Source: Leisingera aquaemixtae (GTDB lineage: Bacteria > Pseudomonadota > Alphaproteobacteria > Rhodobacterales > Rhodobacteraceae). Taken from it: DNA of 64,000 nucleotides. Of the stretch, positions 31,467-40,416 are shown one piece after another. Position numbers and translations under genes: made by a program. The notes under the pieces were generated by a model. That model worked only from the letters and a program-made list of their open reading frames with translations. It had not been told where the DNA came from and did no database searches. The stretch is from the NCBI RefSeq assembly GCF_019801145.1, contig NZ_JAHVJQ010000005.1:248001-312000 (forward strand), given 5' to 3'. Within the stretch, counting starts at the first letter, position 1, and every line of letters starts with the position of its first letter.

Positions 31467-32135
31467 TCTTAAACTTCTCCCATTGGACTGTTGATTGTTC
31501 TTGTTGTTTCAACTGTGAAACCTTGCAAAGGCTTGCCTGCCTTCGACAGTGACAGTTTTGGATATTGATAAGACCAGTTTACTTGCCAATCCGCTTCACA
31601 TGGCGCCAGTTTCGGCGCGTATAGAGATCCTCCACGGCATCTGCACCTTTACCTGAAACCATCGCTGTGGGCGCAGTTTGCGCGCCGAGGCGCAAGCCGT
31701 CAACGCTCCTGCGCCTCATGCCAGCAGAAAGCTGTATCCTACAGGCAGGTAAAAACATCGTGACACGGGCAGGGGTTAACGAAACCGGGCCTCTGGCAAA
31801 GGGCTATCCACCAGGGCCAGAGCGCCCTGGCAAATGGACAGGTGCAAGCCGAGCGCGGTCCCTGCCGCAGCGGAAACCGCCGCCGGATTTCACGCGCTAT
31901 CTGACTTCTTCGGCCTTACCCGCGACCGAGTGCCAGTTGCGCTAATGACGAGCCGCACCGCAGCCTGCCACGGTGTTTTTTGCCGCCGCTTGCGCCCGAA
32001 GCCGGATCGTTGCGGCTCCATCTTCGCAATTCGCTCAAGCTTGCTTTCTATTTTCTGCAAAATGCGCCTGCCTGGCTTGCCGCCGCAGCCGCCACGCCGC
32101 TTAGTCATTTTGGATCTATGCGGGAGGGACCATCC
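31467..32135. other. Divergent intergenic region, 669 bases
   Basis: Separates the ABC importer operon (leftward) from the FAD dehydrogenase gene (rightward). Open frames at 31667-31945 and 31834-32139 have Arg/Pro-rich translations, no ribosome-binding sites and no family features, so I call no gene. One palindrome is listed separately. The remainder shows nothing I can assign. Confidence 0.6.
31506..31521. promoter_or_regulatory. Candidate operator GTTTCA-N4-TGAAAC
   Basis: A perfect 6-bp inverted repeat with a 4-base centre, 40 bases upstream of the binding-protein start codon. It lies where a regulator could affect the importer promoter. No regulator gene is adjacent, so the binding factor is unknown. 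Confidence 0.35.
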
Positions 32136-34571
32136 ATGAAATCGCGCACCAAGGTTGTGGTGATCGGCGGCGGCATCGCCGGCTGCTCCACCCTCTACCA
32201 CCTCACCCAGGAAGGCTGGAGCGATGTTGTTCTGGTCGAACGCAACGAATTGACCAGCGGCACCACCTGGCACTCGGCAGCGCAGGTGACGAATTTCGGC
32301 ATGAACCAGACCATGGTCGGGCTGAAAAGCCATTCCATCGCGCTCTACAAGAAACTGGCCGAAGACCCGGGGTATCCGATCAACTACCACCACGGCGACG
32401 GCGGCATAAGGCTTGCCAACACCGAGGCGCAGATGCAGGGCTACCGCCACTTCGCCTCCATGGCGCGCGGCATGGACGTGCATCTCGAAGTGATCGACGC
32501 GGAGGAATGCGCCCGCCGCCACCCGCTGATCTCGACTGACAACATGATCGGGGGTCTCTGGGACCCGCTGGACGGCGACATCGACCCGGCGCAGCTGTGC
32601 CAGGCGCTGGCCTATCACGCCCGAAAAGCAGGCGCCGAGGTCTACCGCAACACGCCGGTCACCGCCCTTACCCAGCACCAGGACGACACCTGGACCGTGC
32701 ATACGGAACATGGCGACATCGACTGCGATGTCGTGGTCAATGCCTGCGGATACCGGGTGAATGAGGTCGGCGCTATGATGGGTGTGCACCATCCGGTCGC
32801 CTCGATGGAGCATCAGTATTTCCTGACCGAAGACATCCAAGGCATCATCGACGCAGGCCACCGGATGCCGCTGATCCGCTGCCCGATCTCAGACTACTAC
32901 TGCCGCCAGGAAAAGAACGGCCTGCTGATCGGGTTCTACGAACAGGACTGCAAGACCTGGGGCATGGACGGTATCGACCCGAATTTCGTCAACGCCCTTT
33001 GCCCCGATGACCTCGAAAGGGTGATGGACGTGCTGGAGGGTGCGTTCGAGCGGATGCCCGCGCTGCGCGAAACCGGCATCCGGTCCATCGTGAACGGCCC
33101 GATCACCTATACCATCGACGGCGCGCCGCTGATCGGCCCGATCCCGGGCAAGCGCAACGCGTTCTGCGCCATCGGTTTGCGCGCAGGCCTGGGTGAAGGG
33201 GGCGGCCACGGCTGGCTTCTGGCACAGATGATCGTGCATGGCGAAGCCTGCTATGACACCTGGTGCATCGACCCGCGCCGCTTTACCACCCACACCAATG
33301 TGGAGCTGACCGCGCTGAAGGCGATTGAGGATTACCAGAACGAATTCCGCTTCCACTTCCCGCATGAGCACCGCCCGGCCGGCCGCCCCGCCAAGACCAC
33401 GCCGCTCACTCCTGCGCTGGCAGCCGAGGGGGCGGAGTTCACCGTGGTAAACGGCTGGGAAAGGATGGACTACATCAAGCCCGCGCCGGACTTCCACCCC
33501 TCGCTCAGCTTCAATTTCGACGAAGCCTTTGATGTTATCGAAGCCGAAGTGAAGAACGTGCAAGAGAATGCCGGCCTGTGCGAGGTCAATGGCTTCAACC
33601 GGTTTGAGATCACCGGCGCGGACCGCCACATCTTCCTTGACCGGATGTTCTGCGGTGCCGTCGCCAAGCGCGGCGGCCGCGTCGGCCTTGGCTATTTGCT
33701 GAACCACCAAGGTATGGTCAAAGGCGAGGCCACTGTGGCCAACCTGCCTGCCTCGGACCGCGGTCCTGCGCGGGTCTGGTACGGCTCAGCGGCGGCCAGT
33801 GAATACCACGACATGGACTGGCTGACCCAGCACATCCGCGCGGATGAGGACGTGCAGATCCGCTCGCTGACCAATGAGCAGACCATTCTGGTTCTGGCTG
33901 GCCCCAAGGCGCGCGATGTGCTTTCGGCCTGTTCCCGCGGCGACTGGTCCAAGGATGCGTTCCCTTGGCTGTCGGTGCGCGAATGCTTCATCGGGTTCTC
34001 GCCGGCGACCGTCCTGGGCGTCAGCTTCTCGGGCGAGCTGGCCTATGAGATCCACGTGCCCAATGCCTCGCTCTACGCGGCTTATCTCGCATTGCGCGAG
34101 GCAGGGAAAGCCCATGGCCTCAAACTGTTCGGTGCGAGGGCGGTGGACTCGATGCGCATGGAAAAAGGTTTCCTGCATTGGAAGGCCGACATTCTCACCG
34201 AATTCGACCCCTATGAAACCTCACTGGATCGTTTTGTGAAAACCGGCAAGGGTGATTTCATTGGCAAGGAAGCCCTGCTGAGGCGCAGGGAAGAGGGCCT
34301 TCGCAAGAAGCTGGTCACTTTGAAAGTGGACGCGACCCATGCGCCGGCCCACGGCGGCGCCTCGCTGATGCAAGGCAGCAAGGTCGTGGGCACCGTGACC
34401 TCTGGCGACTGGGGGCACCGGGTGGGCATGAACCTGGCCTATGCCTTTGTCGATCCGGATCAAGCAGCGGAGGGCAGCACCATGCAGCTTGATCTCTGCG
34501 GAACAATGGTTTCGGCCACCGTCATTGCGCCGTCCCCATACGATCCGGGCTTTGCACGCATCCGCGGCTGA
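32136..34571 (+). CDS. GcvT-domain FAD-dependent dehydrogenase (dimethylglycine/sarcosine dehydrogenase-like)
   Basis: 811 residues from ATG at 32136 (GGGAGGGA at 32122-32129). The N-terminal half is a DAO-type flavoprotein: VVVIGGGIAGCSTLYHL, then TSGTTWHSAAQV, whose His is the residue that carries covalent FAD in dimethylglycine and sarcosine dehydrogenases. The C-terminal half is a GcvT-like folate domain (VGLGYLLNHQGM; SFSGELAYEIHVP). Such enzymes oxidise N-methyl groups and pass formaldehyde to tetrahydrofolate. The exact substrate is unknown; Roseobacters carry many paralogues. Neighbouring glycine-cleavage genes could process its glycine product. Confidence 0.88.
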   Translation: MKSRTKVVVIGGGIAGCSTLYHLTQEGWSDVVLVERNELTSGTTWHSAAQVTNFGMNQTMVGLKSHSIALYKKLAEDPGYPINYHHGDGGIRLANTEAQMQGYRHFASMARGMDVHLEVIDAEECARRHPLISTDNMIGGLWDPLDGDIDPAQLCQALAYHARKAGAEVYRNTPVTALTQHQDDTWTVHTEHGDIDCDVVVNACGYRVNEVGAMMGVHHPVASMEHQYFLTEDIQGIIDAGHRMPLIRCPISDYYCRQEKNGLLIGFYEQDCKTWGMDGIDPNFVNALCPDDLERVMDVLEGAFERMPALRETGIRSIVNGPITYTIDGAPLIGPIPGKRNAFCAIGLRAGLGEGGGHGWLLAQMIVHGEACYDTWCIDPRRFTTHTNVELTALKAIEDYQNEFRFHFPHEHRPAGRPAKTTPLTPALAAEGAEFTVVNGWERMDYIKPAPDFHPSLSFNFDEAFDVIEAEVKNVQENAGLCEVNGFNRFEITGADRHIFLDRMFCGAVAKRGGRVGLGYLLNHQGMVKGEATVANLPASDRGPARVWYGSAAASEYHDMDWLTQHIRADEDVQIRSLTNEQTILVLAGPKARDVLSACSRGDWSKDAFPWLSVRECFIGFSPATVLGVSFSGELAYEIHVPNASLYAAYLALREAGKAHGLKLFGARAVDSMRMEKGFLHWKADILTEFDPYETSLDRFVKTGKGDFIGKEALLRRREEGLRKKLVTLKVDATHAPAHGGASLMQGSKVVGTVTSGDWGHRVGMNLAYAFVDPDQAAEGSTMQLDLCGTMVSATVIAPSPYDPGFARIRG

Positions 34572-34640: not shown

Positions 34641-35906
34641 TCAACTGCGGCCTTTCCACGGCACCAGCAAATTCTCCGCTTTGCGCATCAGGATGTCGAT
34701 GCCGTATCCGATGATACCGATCAGCACGATGCCCATGATCACGATATCGGTCAGCTGGAACTTGGACGCGGCGATGATCATCATGCCCGCACCCTTTTGC
34801 GCGGCAACCAGTTCGGCGGCCACAACCGTGCCCCAGCAAACCCCCATCGCCACCCGGGCGCCGGTGAAGATCTCCGGCAGCGAGTTCGGCACAATCACAT
34901 GGCGCATGATCTGCCATTTGGAGGCACCCAAGGAATAGGCTGCGTGGATCTTTGAGATGTTCACGCCTGACACCCCGGCCCGCGCCGCAATGGTCATGAT
35001 CCAAAGCGCCGCAAGGAACAGCAGAACAATCTTGCCGGTTTCCCAGATGCCGAACCAGATGATCACCAGAGGGATCAGCGCCAGCGGAGGCACTGGCCGC
35101 ATGAATTCGACAATCGGGTCGAACCAGCCGCGGAACCAGCCGGAAAGGCCCATCGCGTAGCCCAGCGGGATGCCAACAATAGCGCCGGTCACAAAACCCG
35201 CCACAACCCGCAGAAGCGACCATCCCAGGTGCTGCCACAGCGAGAAGTTCTGATAGCCCTCATTGGCGATCTCAAAGAACCGCGACACCACGGTTTCCGG
35301 GGCCGGCAGCCAAATCGGGTTCATCTGCATGCCGCTGTCCGGGGTAAAGCTGATTGCGCCCTTTCCAGTCAGCGTCACGGTGCCGTCTCCGGTGTCAACT
35401 GCGCCGCCAATCGCAATCGGCTCGCCGTTGATCGCCACGATCTTTGCGCCGTCCCGGCGCTTGGCCTCGTCGTTCTTGTCAAACAGCAGCGTGGTCGAAC
35501 GCCCTGCTTGCGCCGCCAGCGCGTCATTCGCGGCAAAGCCGCCGCCGCCCTCGACCTCGAACTTCTGGACGTCCTCGCCAAACCCGAAGACCCGCACGGT
35601 GACATCGGCGTCATCCGTGGCGCCATCGGCGTTTTCCAGCGTGTAGGTGAAGGTGGTCTCACCGGTGAATGGCCCTGGGACGTGGATCGGAAACAGTTTG
35701 GAGCCGGTGAACGCCGCCCAGATCACGAAAATCACCAGAACCGATATGATCGACGCCGCCCGGTCCGGCGTGACCGCGCTTTCGTCGCCGAAGGTCACGG
35801 TCTTGAGGCTGGTGAAGTCCTGCCGCGACTGCATCCCTTTGCGGATAACCTGGACCAGGAAAAAGGCTCCGGCAAACAGCGCGATATAAAACAGAAGTAC
35901 GCTCAT
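34641..35906 (-). CDS. tauC: Taurine/sulfonate-type ABC permease with inserted Ig/cadherin-like beta-domain
   Basis: 421 residues, about 150 longer than a usual TauC/SsuC. Membrane segments at about 1-20 and 51-68, then a hydrophilic insertion (about 70-198), then the standard permease core with the EAA-like loop (KIHAAYSLGASKWQIMRHVIVP). The insertion contains FTYTLENADGATDDADVTVRV and GTVTLTGKGAISFTPDSG, patterns typical of cadherin-like or VCBS beta-sandwich repeats; by topology it should be periplasmic. It may contact the binding protein. The frame is uninterrupted. It overlaps the ATPase gene by 4 bases. Substrate inference is from the TauA-like receptor. Confidence 0.85.
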   Translation of the reverse strand: MSVLLFYIALFAGAFFLVQVIRKGMQSRQDFTSLKTVTFGDESAVTPDRAASIISVLVIFVIWAAFTGSKLFPIHVPGPFTGETTFTYTLENADGATDDADVTVRVFGFGEDVQKFEVEGGGGFAANDALAAQAGRSTTLLFDKNDEAKRRDGAKIVAINGEPIAIGGAVDTGDGTVTLTGKGAISFTPDSGMQMNPIWLPAPETVVSRFFEIANEGYQNFSLWQHLGWSLLRVVAGFVTGAIVGIPLGYAMGLSGWFRGWFDPIVEFMRPVPPLALIPLVIIWFGIWETGKIVLLFLAALWIMTIAARAGVSGVNISKIHAAYSLGASKWQIMRHVIVPNSLPEIFTGARVAMGVCWGTVVAAELVAAQKGAGMMIIAASKFQLTDIVIMGIVLIGIIGYGIDILMRKAENLLVPWKGRS

Positions 35907-36709
35907 GCCACTTGCTCCGTCCGGCCCATGATCTCCTCTTCCATCTCCCAGATCATCGAGAGGATCTCATCGCGGGTCTCGGCAAAGCCTTCGGATTTCT
36001 TGACGTCGCGCAGGTCCGCATTCACGCCGCGCTCAGCAAAGGGCAGCTGGTATTCGCGGTGAATGCGGCCCGGACGCGGCGCCATCACGATCAGCCGCTC
36101 GCCCAACAGCAGCGCTTCCTCCACCGAGTGGGTGATCAGGATGATGGTCTTGCCGGTCTCCTTCCACAGCTTCAGCACCAGGCCTTGCATCTTCTCCCGT
36201 GTCAGCGCGTCAAGCGCGCCCAGCGGCTCGTCCATCAGGATCACGTCCGGCTCATTCGCCAGGCAGCGAGCCAGCGCCACACGCTGCTGCATGCCGCCCG
36301 ACAGTTCATAAACCGCCTTTTCCTTAAAGTCCTGCAATCCGACGATTTCCAGCAAGTGGTCCGAGATTTTTTCCCGCTCCGCCTTGCCCATACCCTTCAT
36401 CCGGGGGCCGAATTCCACATTGTCGCGGACGTTCATCCATTCAAACAAGGCGCCCTTCTGGAACACCATACCGCGTTCGGCATCGGGGCCGGTCACTACG
36501 TGGCCGTTCAGTTCCACCTCGCCCTCGGTAGGGGCCAGGAACCCGGCCAGAATATTCAGCAGCGTGGTCTTGCCGCAGCCCGACGGGCCCAGCACCGACA
36601 GCAGCTCCCCCGCCTGCAAATTCAATGAAACGTCTTTCAGCGCCTGAACCGAACTGCCGTTGGGCAGGTCAAAACGCATGGAGACACTCTTGATGTCCAG
36701 TCCCGACAT
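35903..36709 (-). CDS. tauB: Taurine/sulfonate-type ABC transporter ATP-binding protein
   Basis: 268 residues. Walker A GPSGCGKTT, signature LSGGMQQR, Walker B VILMDEPLGALD and switch ILITHSVEEAL. Nitrate/sulfonate/taurine class. It follows the receptor gene by 100 bases, a gap holding an imperfect hairpin at 36763-36787, and overlaps the permease gene by 4 bases. Confidence 0.92.
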   Translation of the reverse strand: MSGLDIKSVSMRFDLPNGSSVQALKDVSLNLQAGELLSVLGPSGCGKTTLLNILAGFLAPTEGEVELNGHVVTGPDAERGMVFQKGALFEWMNVRDNVEFGPRMKGMGKAEREKISDHLLEIVGLQDFKEKAVYELSGGMQQRVALARCLANEPDVILMDEPLGALDALTREKMQGLVLKLWKETGKTIILITHSVEEALLLGERLIVMAPRPGRIHREYQLPFAERGVNADLRDVKKSEGFAETRDEILSMIWEMEEEIMGRTEQVA

Positions 36710-36809: not shown

Positions 36810-37805
36810 TCAGTTCAGCGCAGCTTCCAGCGGCGCGCTGTTCACCGCACCGTCATAGGAGTCGAGCGCGGCCTCGATGCTGCCCGCGTTCACGAACACA
36901 TCCGCCACGCCCTTCATGAAGCTCTGGGCGCCGCCGCCCAGCCACTTCCCGGACAGCTGGTCCTCAGCTGAGGGGAAGCTGAAGGTCGCGATGGTGGCCT
37001 CGGCATCGGCCAGGTCCATACCTGCGTCCTTGGCAATCACCGGCAGCATCTCATCCTTGCTGTCGCCCGCATTCCACATTGCATTGGCATCTGCGGTCAC
37101 TTTCAGGAACTTGCTCAGAAGCGCACCCTCCTCCGCGATGAAGCCCGCAGGCGCGCTGGTCACGTCAAACACCAGAATGCCCAGCTCTTCCTTCTCGGCA
37201 CCGGTCAGCAGAACGTTGCCGTGCTCCAGCATCCGCCGCAGCGCGCCGCCCCAGCCGCAGACCATGTCCAGATTGCCCTGGGCAAAGGCCGCCGCACCGT
37301 CGGCGGGGGCCATGTCGACGATTTCCATCGACCCGACATCAACCCCGAAATGCGCCATCTGCGACAGGAAGCCATAATGCGCAGCGGTGCCGATGGGCAC
37401 GCCCACCTTCTTGCCGTTCAATTCACCGGCGTTTTCCTTGTCGATCTCCAGCGCCTCGGCGACAACGCAGTTGTCATTGTCCGAATAGCTGACCGCCACA
37501 TCCACGGTCTGGATGTCCTGCCCGGCAGAGGTCGCAACCACGAACGGCGGCACGCCCTGGCTGACGGCAATCTGCACGTCGCCCGAGGCCATCGCCGCCG
37601 ACATCGCGGTGCCGGTATCGAAGGAGACCCAGTTGATCTTGACGCCCATCTCTTCTTCATAGGTGCCATTGGCCTTGGCGAACTGGAACGGCATCGGCCA
37701 CTCAAGAAAATAGGCCACGGTAATTTCGTCGAGTGCCGAAGCCTGGGTCGCCGGAATCGCGGCCGCGGCTGCACAGGCTGTTGAAAGCAGATACTTTTTG
37801 ATCAT
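36810..37805 (-). CDS. tauA: Taurine-type ABC transporter substrate-binding protein
   Basis: 331 residues. Sec signal peptide about 1-24 (ends ATQASA). Mature protein starts DEITVAYFLEWPMPFQFA and has the NMT1/TauA-type fold with SYSDNDNCVVAEALEI and GTAAHYGFLSQM. Its wording resembles alphaproteobacterial taurine receptors as I remember them; another sulfonate cannot be excluded. No taurine:pyruvate aminotransferase or taurine dehydrogenase gene is in the window. GGGAGAAC precedes the start. It diverges from a LysR gene. Confidence 0.82.
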   Translation of the reverse strand: MIKKYLLSTACAAAAAIPATQASALDEITVAYFLEWPMPFQFAKANGTYEEEMGVKINWVSFDTGTAMSAAMASGDVQIAVSQGVPPFVVATSAGQDIQTVDVAVSYSDNDNCVVAEALEIDKENAGELNGKKVGVPIGTAAHYGFLSQMAHFGVDVGSMEIVDMAPADGAAAFAQGNLDMVCGWGGALRRMLEHGNVLLTGAEKEELGILVFDVTSAPAGFIAEEGALLSKFLKVTADANAMWNAGDSKDEMLPVIAKDAGMDLADAEATIATFSFPSAEDQLSGKWLGGGAQSFMKGVADVFVNAGSIEAALDSYDGAVNSAPLEAALN

Positions 37806-37919: not shown

Positions 37920-38012
37920 CTTCCGGCGAATGTAAAACTTAGTTTCGTTTTTTACGGATGTAATGGCGTGCAGCTGCTGATAGCATATGCAAACCACAAG
38001 GGAGGAAGGCAT

Positions 38013-38984
38013 ATGCAAAAGACGCTGAGTCTGCGCTGGCTGGAGGTATTCCAGCTGATCTCCAAGTCGGGATCAATCCAGAAGGCCGCTGCGGAAACCG
38101 GCCTTTCGATCAGCACCGTGTCAAATCACTTGCGCAGTCTGGAAAACGCCCTTGGCGTAGAACTGGTGGACCATACCCGCCGCCCGATGGGGCTGACGCC
38201 GGCCGGGGTGGTCTTTGCCCGCTATGTCTACGACGGGCTGATGACGCTGAGGCGCGGCGAGGCGGAAATCCGCTCCGGCAGCTGGCAGCACGCCACCGAT
38301 CTGCGGATGGCGCTGCTGGATGATTTCGACAATGAGGTCGGCCCGGAGCTGTTCCAGTTCCTCTCCACCGCGCTGCCCCGGTGCAGCTTCCGCCACTACA
38401 CCCGCCCCAGCCACGAGATCATTGAGAAGCTGCAGGCCCAGAAGCTGGATGCAGGCGTTGCCACCCGCCCGTCCGGGCTGTTGCCCGATCTGATCGAGTA
38501 CCCGCTGATGCGCGATCCGTTCATCCTGGTGGTGCCGGCAGGCTACACCGGCAGCATCGAAGAGCTGACCAAGGCAGACGCGCCCCTGCCTTTCCTGCGC
38601 TATTCCCGCGACCACACCATCGGCAAGCAGATCGAAACCCAGCTGAGCCGCCTCAAGATCGCCCTGCCCAACCGGTTTGAGCTGGAATGCAACCAGTCGA
38701 TCATCGGCCTGGTGTCCGAGGGCAGCGGCTGGACTGTCACCACCGCTGCCAGCTACCACCGCGCCCAGCGTTTCCATGAGAAGATCAAAGTGGTGCGTTT
38801 TCCAGGCAAAAGCTTTGCCAGAACGGTCTCGCTGTTCACCACCAGCGTCTATCCCGCTGCCACTTCGCAACTGATCCACGAGGCGCTGCAGAAATCCCTG
38901 CGCCTCCACTTCACCGACCCGATCAGCCAGCGCTTCCCGTGGTTGGGGGAAGAATTCCGGACGCTGCCCGCCAAAGACGCCTAG
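38013..38984 (+). CDS. LysR-family transcriptional regulator
   Basis: 323 residues from ATG at 38013, chosen for GGGAGGAAGG upstream; an in-frame ATG at 37968 has none. The HTH is at about 7-65 (WLEVFQLISKSGSIQKAAAETGLSISTVSNHLRSLENALG). The C-terminal effector domain covers the rest. It diverges from the taurine-type importer and precedes an HpsN-like gene on the same strand, so it probably controls one or both. Confidence 0.9.
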   Translation: MQKTLSLRWLEVFQLISKSGSIQKAAAETGLSISTVSNHLRSLENALGVELVDHTRRPMGLTPAGVVFARYVYDGLMTLRRGEAEIRSGSWQHATDLRMALLDDFDNEVGPELFQFLSTALPRCSFRHYTRPSHEIIEKLQAQKLDAGVATRPSGLLPDLIEYPLMRDPFILVVPAGYTGSIEELTKADAPLPFLRYSRDHTIGKQIETQLSRLKIALPNRFELECNQSIIGLVSEGSGWTVTTAASYHRAQRFHEKIKVVRFPGKSFARTVSLFTTSVYPAATSQLIHEALQKSLRLHFTDPISQRFPWLGEEFRTLPAKDA

Positions 38985-39138
38985 GCCCCCCGGCAATTAG
39001 AAACAAACATCCGTGTTTTTCGAAATCTGCCGGCCATAGCTTGACGGTTTGGCCGCTGGGGCGCTGTTTTAGGCGCATCCCGCGCCGTGCCCTTGCAGCA
39101 CATCCGGCGGCCCGCAAACGGAAAATGAGCTGACCCAA

Positions 39139-40416
39139 ATGGCAATCACCTATCTGAAACAGGCCCAGCCCCGCCCCGCCGCCGAGAACAGCGGCATCCG
39201 CGACACCGTCGCCGTGATGCTTGCCAGTATCGAGCGGGAGGGTGAGGAAGCGGCCCGCCGTTATGCCGAAAAGCTCGACGGCTGGACCGGCCCGGCTGTG
39301 GTGAGCGATGCCCAGCGCCGCGCCGCCTGCAACCGGGTGCCGGATCAGCTCAAGGAGGACATCCGGTTCGGGCACGCCAACATCCGCCGCTTTGCCGAGG
39401 CGCAGAAGGCCACGATGGGCGAATGCGAGGTGGAAGTGATCCCTGGCCTGATTGCGGGCCAGAAGCAGATCCCGGTGTCCAGCGCCGGCTGCTATGTGCC
39501 GGGCGGGCGCTACAGCCATATCGCCAGCGCGCTGATGACGATCACCACCGCCAAGGTGGCTGGCGTGCCCCATATCACCGCCGTCTCACCGCCGCGCCCC
39601 GGCACCGGCATCCCCGATGCGATCATCTATGCGATGGACCTCAGCGGTGCCGACCTGATCCTGAACCTGGGCGGGGTGCAGGGCATTGCAGCCATGGCGC
39701 AGGGCCTGTTCGGATCGCAGCCCGCCGACATCCTGGTCGGCCCCGGCAACTCCTACGTGGCGGAGGCCAAGCGGATGCTGTTCGGCCCGGTCGGCATCGA
39801 CATGTTTGCAGGCCCAACCGATTCACTTGTAATCGCCGATCACACGGCTGACATTGAAACGGTCGCCTGGGACCTGGTCAGCCAGGCGGAACACGGTGCC
39901 GACAGCCCGGTCTGGCTGGTCACCACCAGCGAGCCGCTGGCCAAGGGCGTGATGGCCCGCGCACAGGCGCTGATTGAAAAGTTGCCCGAGCCCAATCTCT
40001 CTGCCGCTCATCGCGCCTGGCACGAACGCGCCGAGGTCGTCCTGTGCGGCAGCCGTGAAGAGGCCGCGCAGGTGGCTGACCGTTACGCGCCGGAACATCT
40101 GCAGGTGCAGGCAGAGGGTCTGGACTGGTGGCTGGAACGCCTCACTGCCTATGGTTCGCTGTTTCTGGGCAAGGAAACCACGGTGTCCTTCGGCGACAAG
40201 ACTTCAGGCCCGAACCACGTGCTGCCGACCAGCGGTGCCGCGCGTTATACCGGCGGGCTGTCGGTGCACAAGTTCACCAAGACCGTGACTTGGCAGCGCT
40301 GCAATGCCGCCGCCTCGCATGAACTGGCCCAGCGCACCGCCCGCATCAGCCGGATGGAAGGGATGGAAGGCCACGCCATCGCCGCCGAGATGCGGCTGCA
40401 GCCCGAAACTGTCTGA
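39139..40416 (+). CDS. hpsN: Histidinol-dehydrogenase-family enzyme, HpsN-like sulfopropanediol 3-dehydrogenase
   Basis: 425 residues. The family motifs include SSAGCYVPGGRYSH, VGPGNSYVAEAKR, YAPEHLQVQ (catalytic Glu-His pair) and SGPNHVLPTSGAARYTGGLSV. No histidine genes are near, and the TSGPNHVLPT...GGLSVHKF region looks like HpsN, which oxidises (R)-2,3-dihydroxypropane-1-sulfonate to sulfolactate with two NAD+. A sulfonate importer and LysR regulator stand next to it, which supports a sulfonate role. The usual hpsK-L-M TRAP carrier and hpsO/P dehydrogenases are absent here. Its ribosome-binding site is weak. Confidence 0.65.
   Translation: MAITYLKQAQPRPAAENSGIRDTVAVMLASIEREGEEAARRYAEKLDGWTGPAVVSDAQRRAACNRVPDQLKEDIRFGHANIRRFAEAQKATMGECEVEVIPGLIAGQKQIPVSSAGCYVPGGRYSHIASALMTITTAKVAGVPHITAVSPPRPGTGIPDAIIYAMDLSGADLILNLGGVQGIAAMAQGLFGSQPADILVGPGNSYVAEAKRMLFGPVGIDMFAGPTDSLVIADHTADIETVAWDLVSQAEHGADSPVWLVTTSEPLAKGVMARAQALIEKLPEPNLSAAHRAWHERAEVVLCGSREEAAQVADRYAPEHLQVQAEGLDWWLERLTAYGSLFLGKETTVSFGDKTSGPNHVLPTSGAARYTGGLSVHKFTKTVTWQRCNAAASHELAQRTARISRMEGMEGHAIAAEMRLQPETV

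Follow-up and report, generated by a model that had tools for sequence, protein, structure and literature searches.

In the maltose importer of E. coli, a heterodimer, the P2 region of MalF is Ig-like and is inserted in this one subunit between TM3 and TM4. P2 comprises MalF residues 91-271 (PMC3150292), and part of it is reported to contact MalE directly (PMC3150292; PMC8134467). RTX adhesins provide a second point of reference, since they have been described to contain Ig-like domains that are split by a ligand-binding domain lodged within them (PMC10865825). Here we describe a TauC-like permease of Leisingera aquaemixtae that carries an insert of adhesin type behind its first membrane segments. 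Our reading of the whole is that a permuted Big_9 domain, gained once and derived from an adhesin array, may serve as a MalF-P2-like periplasmic arm on a taurine-type importer, a reading on which we find the balance about level.

The importer locus and its likely substrate

The window, which is the whole 64,000-nucleotide stretch that was analysed, contains three co-oriented genes in the order binding protein, ATPase, permease, the permease being last by position. The importer genes and their neighbours are as follows.

31980..34571, plus strand: DAO-GCV_T oxidoreductase (dimethylglycine/sarcosine dehydrogenase-like; Pfam), convergent, downstream
34641..35906, minus strand: TauC-like ABC permease gene, 421 aa, an exact open reading frame with BPD_transp_1 (PF00528)
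35903..36709, minus strand: ATP-binding subunit, 268 aa, sharing 4 bases with the permease start
36810..37805, minus strand: periplasmic substrate-binding protein, TauA-like, 331 aa (TIGR01729 158.5 bits, below the TauA cut-off of 304.25)
37968..38984, plus strand: LysR-type regulator (Pfam), divergent, upstream of the importer genes

The initial annotation had named an ABC permease flanked by subunits of ordinary size, and both statements hold. The gene is open only on the minus strand, the plus-strand reading being interrupted by stops. Residues 245-408 match BPD_transp_1 at 96.6 bits against a cut-off of 26.4 (Pfam), and the best NCBIfam model among those listed, TauC NF007545, covers residues 194-420 at 232.5 bits, below its equivalog cut-off of 342. 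In tblastn tables for 80 named loci, from which all neighbour counts are taken, a relative of the ATPase adjoins the permease in all 80, a binding-protein relative is present in 77, a LysR relative in 32 and a DAO-GCV_T oxidoreductase relative in 34, some of the last at just 24-39% identity. A frameshift or fusion artefact was ruled out by the open frame and by the full-length protein in 20 of 21 genomes of the genus (own included, 90-100% identity) and in 55 diverse relatives; one member of the genus, G016, gave no permease match at E<=1e-40. Current annotation hides the insert: five annotated full-length matches on plasmids carry the labels 'ABC transporter permease' or 'permease subunit' alone.

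Taurine is described as important to marine microbes as a source of carbon and energy (PMC6647121). The xsc gene of the host scores 935.6 bits with an equivalog model whose cut-off is 676.4, a model that all 14 control genomes match, none of them above cut-off. On the same contig a class III aminotransferase lies about 2.8 kb from xsc and is 73% identical to one that adjoins the permease in relatives. An xsc with 80-90% identity to that of the host was found in the fetched flank of six relatives (L040, L083, L084, L087, L091 and L095) and partly in that of L127; the three scanned (L083, L084 and L087) pass the equivalog cut-off, and xsc also adjoins an insert-less sister permease, L145, at 77% identity. 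Its nearness to the permease in relatives points to taurine or sulfonate uptake as the likely activity. The aminotransferase, present in 26 of the 80 named loci (a MocR-type regulator is in 20), passes none of the 25 curated cut-offs shown (25 of 64), and is a putative taurine:pyruvate aminotransferase. The next best TauC-like match in the host shares 31% identity.

The flanks of the importer in the window (31980-34571 and 37968-40416) carry the DAO-GCV_T oxidoreductase, the LysR regulator and a histidinol-dehydrogenase-family gene, a group that is kept in most Leisingera loci and varies in other genera. This group hints at a substrate other than plain taurine, and the demethylating-type oxidoreductase beside the importer in Leisingera and some others would fit N-methylated substrates. 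Judged from gene neighbourhoods, taurine is the probable substrate, or else a closely related sulfonate or N-methyl derivative.

An inserted domain in permuted order

The collected full-length loci numbered 161 (137 distinct proteins, 403-443 aa), from which 55 representatives with less than 80% mutual identity were drawn. The parts of the permease are listed here in the order of the protein.

35844..35900, minus strand: TM1, extra N-terminal segment, residues 3-21 (hydropathy; predicted N-out)
35703..35759, minus strand: TM2, residues 50-68, equivalent of the first TauC membrane segment (hydropathy; AF2 helix 49-67)
35328..35693, minus strand: inserted, predicted periplasmic Ig-like (Big_9) domain, permuted, residues 72-193 (Pfam, rotation, AF2)
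35586..35663, minus strand: first piece of the insert, C-terminal beta-hairpin of Big_9, residues 82-107 (strands 82-91 and 97-107)
35526..35585, minus strand: linker from the hairpin back to the first strands, residues 108-127, of varying length among relatives (AF2, alignment)
35340..35525, minus strand: second piece, N-terminal part of Big_9, residues 128-189 (AF2 strands; rotation)
34644..35327, minus strand: TauC-type transmembrane core, residues 194-421 (NF007545 over 194-420; CmpB/NrtB fold matches)

After TM1 and TM2 the next hydropathy segment begins at residue 231, and the stretch from 68 up to that point has none, in agreement with the hydrophilic region of about residues 70-198 that had been noted between the N-terminal segments and the core. 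Basic residues at positions 22, 23, 28, 35 and 49 lie on the predicted inner side, between TM1 and TM2, and this positive-inside pattern places the insert after TM2 in the periplasm by prediction, where the initial annotation had also put it.

In all 55 representatives the stretch corresponding to residues 71-196 is occupied by an insert of 122-143 aa. The whole permease scores 31.7 bits with Big_9 (PF17963; cut-off 23.6), in two stretches, and in the better of them residues 80-104 align to model positions 64-88 of 89, meaning that the C-terminal end of the family is placed first. A continuous full-length Big_9 in family order is absent from the native insert, which holds the two pieces the other way round. 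If its first 29 residues are transferred to the C-terminal end, the Big_9 score rises from 32.6 bits in two stretches to 43.8 bits in a single one (model 7-88 of 89). The same rotation takes a divergent homologue (L172) from 28.6 to 39.3 bits and a gammaproteobacterial one (L116) from no match to 18.1 bits, still below the cut-off of 23.6, while a control rotation cut elsewhere, with the ends likewise joined, gives 41.9 bits. When ten rotated inserts are combined into a profile, it aligns to a solved RTX protein, 36gk, right through the joint, where a gap of two residues falls (E 2.7e-5); the native-order profile of the 55 inserts matches the hairpin of 36gk only (E 1.1e-3). The rotation scores and the match through the joint show the insert to be, by profile and model, a predicted circularly permuted Big_9-type Ig-like domain, single and opened at the loop before the last hairpin, and not an ordinary member of Big_9. 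When the representatives were scanned separately, 48 of the 55 had a Big_9 match at E<=0.01 and seven were missed.

The AF2 model of the full-length permease, built with 55 relatives, has a mean pLDDT of 80.9 and a pTM of 0.65; within the insert, pLDDT is 81-92 when taken over blocks of ten residues. Residues 71-196 modelled alone reach pLDDT 91.3 and pTM 0.81 and have eight strands, at positions 12-21, 27-37, 58-63, 68-70, 85-89, 99-101, 105-109 and 115-119 of that stretch. The initial annotation, with its cadherin/VCBS-like beta-domain, was right as to an adhesin-type Ig/cadherin-like domain between the N-terminal segments and the core, but had missed the permutation. With Cadherin_5 (PF17892) itself the native protein reaches 16.1 bits against a cut-off of 26.5 (the insert scores 26.5 bits rotated and 27.2 in the control rotation).

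The operon has one permease gene, and a homodimeric permease would give two copies of the insert per importer. Two copies placed close together in this way might allow half-domains of the two protomers to complement each other across the dimer, with no permutation within one chain. We consider such a swap very improbable: AF2 folds a single copy with the pTM given above, and the linker of about 20 residues would be long enough for the chain to return.

Foldseek found no match to the insert at E<=0.001 among 295 PDB matches, and VIA gave nothing confident, with a best Z of 4.0 (1o22) followed by 3.6 (FrhA, 9y9w); RTX adhesin entries (MpAFP 5k8g and 6xi1; FrhA 9y9w) are among the weak rows. For the full-length model, the fold rows shown are permeases or importer complexes, and include CmpB and NrtB structures with Z up to 22.5. 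Aligners of the Foldseek and VIA type follow chain order, and a permuted fold would therefore score low. For that reason we do not take the missing fold match as novelty, and these chain-order searches neither confirm nor exclude an Ig fold for the modelled insert.

The two ends of the insert are the halves of an adhesin junction, 'TPxxG|xFTG'. Big_9 repeats in the same genome read ...ITYTPDAGFTGADSFTYTV..., unbroken at the position of the joint in the insert (TPDAG-FTG), and the native-order insert profile matches them weakly across repeat boundaries (model 9-90 of 126, 16-17 bits). These boundary-crossing matches and the unbroken repeats together indicate that one out-of-phase period of such an array would give the observed order; the insert may thus have originated as one period, taken out of phase, from an adhesin array of tandem Big_9 repeats. 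Ends that are adjacent in the ordinary fold would be a requirement for splicing a domain into one loop between TM2 and the core. Contig C11 of the same genome (L229-L234) has a 1943-aa open frame that resembles an adhesin, with highly similar tandem repeats and six strong matches to Big_9. RTX extender domains are reported to hold linker Ca2+ (PMC7493085); in the insert, residues D128, N145 and D146 are nearly invariant and would fit Ca2+ binding.

The kinship of the insert with repeats of adhesin-type proteins would also suit a domain that binds peptidoglycan or another component of the periplasm or outer membrane and so positions the importer. We regard this as quite unlikely, one domain of about 120 residues adjoining the membrane being short for such contacts. 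Of the three roles suggested in the initial annotation, neither wall contact nor the holding of substrate draws specific support from the present results.

Distribution and descent of the insert

In an even draw of 394 genomes from the family of the host, 205 match the permease at E<=1e-50 and 182 (own included) at E<=6.4e-113, the insert-bearing range, although in two of these (G233 and G139) the match starts at residue 179-181 and the insert is outside the matched part. By these scores, close to half of the genera sampled from the family have this form of importer. The remaining genomes of the 205, 23 in number, have weaker matches, with E from 4e-92 to 1e-50, and the five of them that were fetched (L216-L220) match in the core only. 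When the draw spans the class, 34 of 385 genomes match at E<=1e-45, five of the 34 along the whole insert-bearing protein; for a draw from the phylum the figures are 63 of 398, and in 13 of the 63 the match either runs along the insert or comes in two pieces that cover it. The possibility, raised at the outset, that all alphaproteobacterial TauC proteins carry the domain is ruled out by the class-wide count. The insert is instead a lineage trait, widespread in marine relatives. Among the best 80 of 255 matches, the closest named permease records are from Leisingera, and outside the family the insert-bearing permease occurs in Roseibium and SUP05/Pseudothioglobus records. One insert-bearing permease (L175, genome G397) has a further short loop about 15 residues past the LPxP motif.

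A tree was built from the core alone with 78 sequences (42 insert-bearing, nine insert-less sisters, seven of a long type and 20 standard); its bootstrap had not settled and long branches meet in it, and within it the insert-bearing permeases make up one side of a branch with support 100/99, in 100% of 200 bootstrap trees. The insert-less sisters, which have about 61-68% core identity and share a 'KTVxFGDxxAV'-like motif, fall outside this clade. Since the insert-bearing permeases form one clade, the tree shows a single gain of the insert, on the same branch as the extra N-terminal TM helix as far as sampled. Three SUP05-type sequences (L116, L122 and L132) are grouped with 100/100 support, and their group is nested in a Rhodobacteral subgroup (83/90, 88/86). 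Such nesting suggests transfer, and the insert-bearing permease probably reached SUP05-type gammaproteobacteria horizontally.

The insert has a median dN/dS of 0.113 (41 comparisons, range 0.042-0.223) and the core and N-terminus have medians of 0.026 and 0.063 (42 comparisons each), some genomes being included twice in these comparisons under two locus ids. A value of 0.113 indicates purifying selection; the insert is under selection, less tightly than the core, with a dN/dS about four times that of the core. Its faster evolution, seen also in a mean column identity of 48% against 67% for the whole protein, is what would be expected of a near-neutral passenger, tolerated at its insertion because its ends are close and kept by history. 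This account is distinctly improbable in view of the purifying selection, the retention of the domain in gammaproteobacterial members and the lack of any loss in the tree, where none of the 36 insert-less or long-type sequences lies inside the insert-bearing clade.

TauC-like permeases of about 640 aa (L158, L159, L161, L165 and L237) have an unrelated insert at the same site. The three that were scanned gave no Pfam match above cut-off in this insert. One cysteine stands near each of its ends, 257-270 residues apart in all four proteins checked (C78 and C348 in L158); hydropathy gives two N-terminal segments in two of four and one above threshold in the other two. The core-only tree sets the long type apart, on a long branch and with 100/100 support as a group. 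Whole-length permeases of this type occur in 10 of the 23 weaker-matching family genomes (10 others have a core-only match and three none at E<=1e-40) and in seven of 372 genomes of the class, and two of the hosts have single-contig genomes of 1.2-1.3 Mb. Marine taurine-type importers might, then, have built periplasmic arms at least twice at the same loop from unrelated domains, namely the permuted adhesin Ig domain in the Rhodobacteral/SUP05 clade and the insert of about 260-270 residues between two cysteines in the long type, with permutation having enabled the insertion and both arms raising capture of the binding protein at very low substrate. We offer this wider scheme tentatively and think it rather doubtful.

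Possible roles and comparison with known systems

By analogy with MalF-P2, the insert would most likely reach into the periplasm as a rigid arm, set next to the mouth of the transporter. There it would touch the binding protein and favour its docking when both this protein and the ligand are scarce. Among 52 representatives, the evolutionary rate of the insert covaries with that of the binding protein once core and ATPase are removed (partial r 0.214, p 0.002), shared ancestry remaining in this figure; the corresponding values are 0.08 (p 0.03) with the ATPase and 0.129 (p 0.012) with the core (Mantel). The partial correlations of the core and of the N-terminus with the binding protein, 0.287 and 0.192, are similar in size to that of the insert, so the support that rate covariation lends to a coupling of insert and binding protein is weak and unspecific.

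The insert and TM1 also occur together. Two hydrophobic segments lie within the first 75 aa in 51 of the 55 insert-bearing representatives (one segment in the other four), and all nine insert-less sisters read have a single one before the core. The N-terminal segment covaries slightly with the insert as well (partial r 0.09). Such a pairing could mean that the insert and the extra helix pack against the partner protomer and stabilise the dimer or its insertion, with no contact to the binding protein. We think this unlikely: insert-less sister importers manage without the insert, and its largest partial correlation, though weak, is the one with the binding protein.

If the insert is indeed a receptor-docking arm, the importer offers a simple and testable case of tuning for scarce substrate. 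Whatever its role, the insert is in addition a natural example of predicted circular permutation letting a domain enter a loop of a membrane protein. Among open-access papers, titles and abstract openings held no description of such a domain in a permease, and the literature on permuted Ig domains, covered in the same way, had no description of the insert.

The core of about 228 residues is like that of TauC, CmpB and NrtB. The TauC model NF007545 has 275 positions, and for CmpB and NrtB most alignments comprise about 233-248 residues, spread between positions 45 and 420 of the permease model, from which it follows that the insert has no counterpart in them; the extra TM helix is absent from TauC, CmpB and NrtB in the alignments made. 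With the Ig-like repeats of Big_9/RTX adhesins the insert shares its sequence family, the hallmark strings and the match to a solved RTX protein, but it differs from them in being single-copy, permuted and within an inner-membrane transporter. The initial annotation had thought its adhesin-type strings foreign to transporters: their adhesin family is borne out by Big_9, but the insert is common in the family of the host and MalF-P2 is a precedent for arms. As in the split Ig-like domains described for FrhA and MpAFP/MpIBP, an Ig-like domain has been opened and the entry and exit of its chain serve an insertion; unlike in those proteins, the Ig-like domain is here the guest in a permease and not the host of a ligand-binding domain. 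As described, MalF-P2 of the E. coli maltose importer is likewise a folded region on the periplasmic side, inserted between membrane segments in the permease of an ABC importer. It is larger than the present insert, a permuted Big_9 that comes after TM2 in the product of a single permease gene. Periplasmic insertions in permeases were already known; what is new here is a P2-like one made from a permuted adhesin domain.
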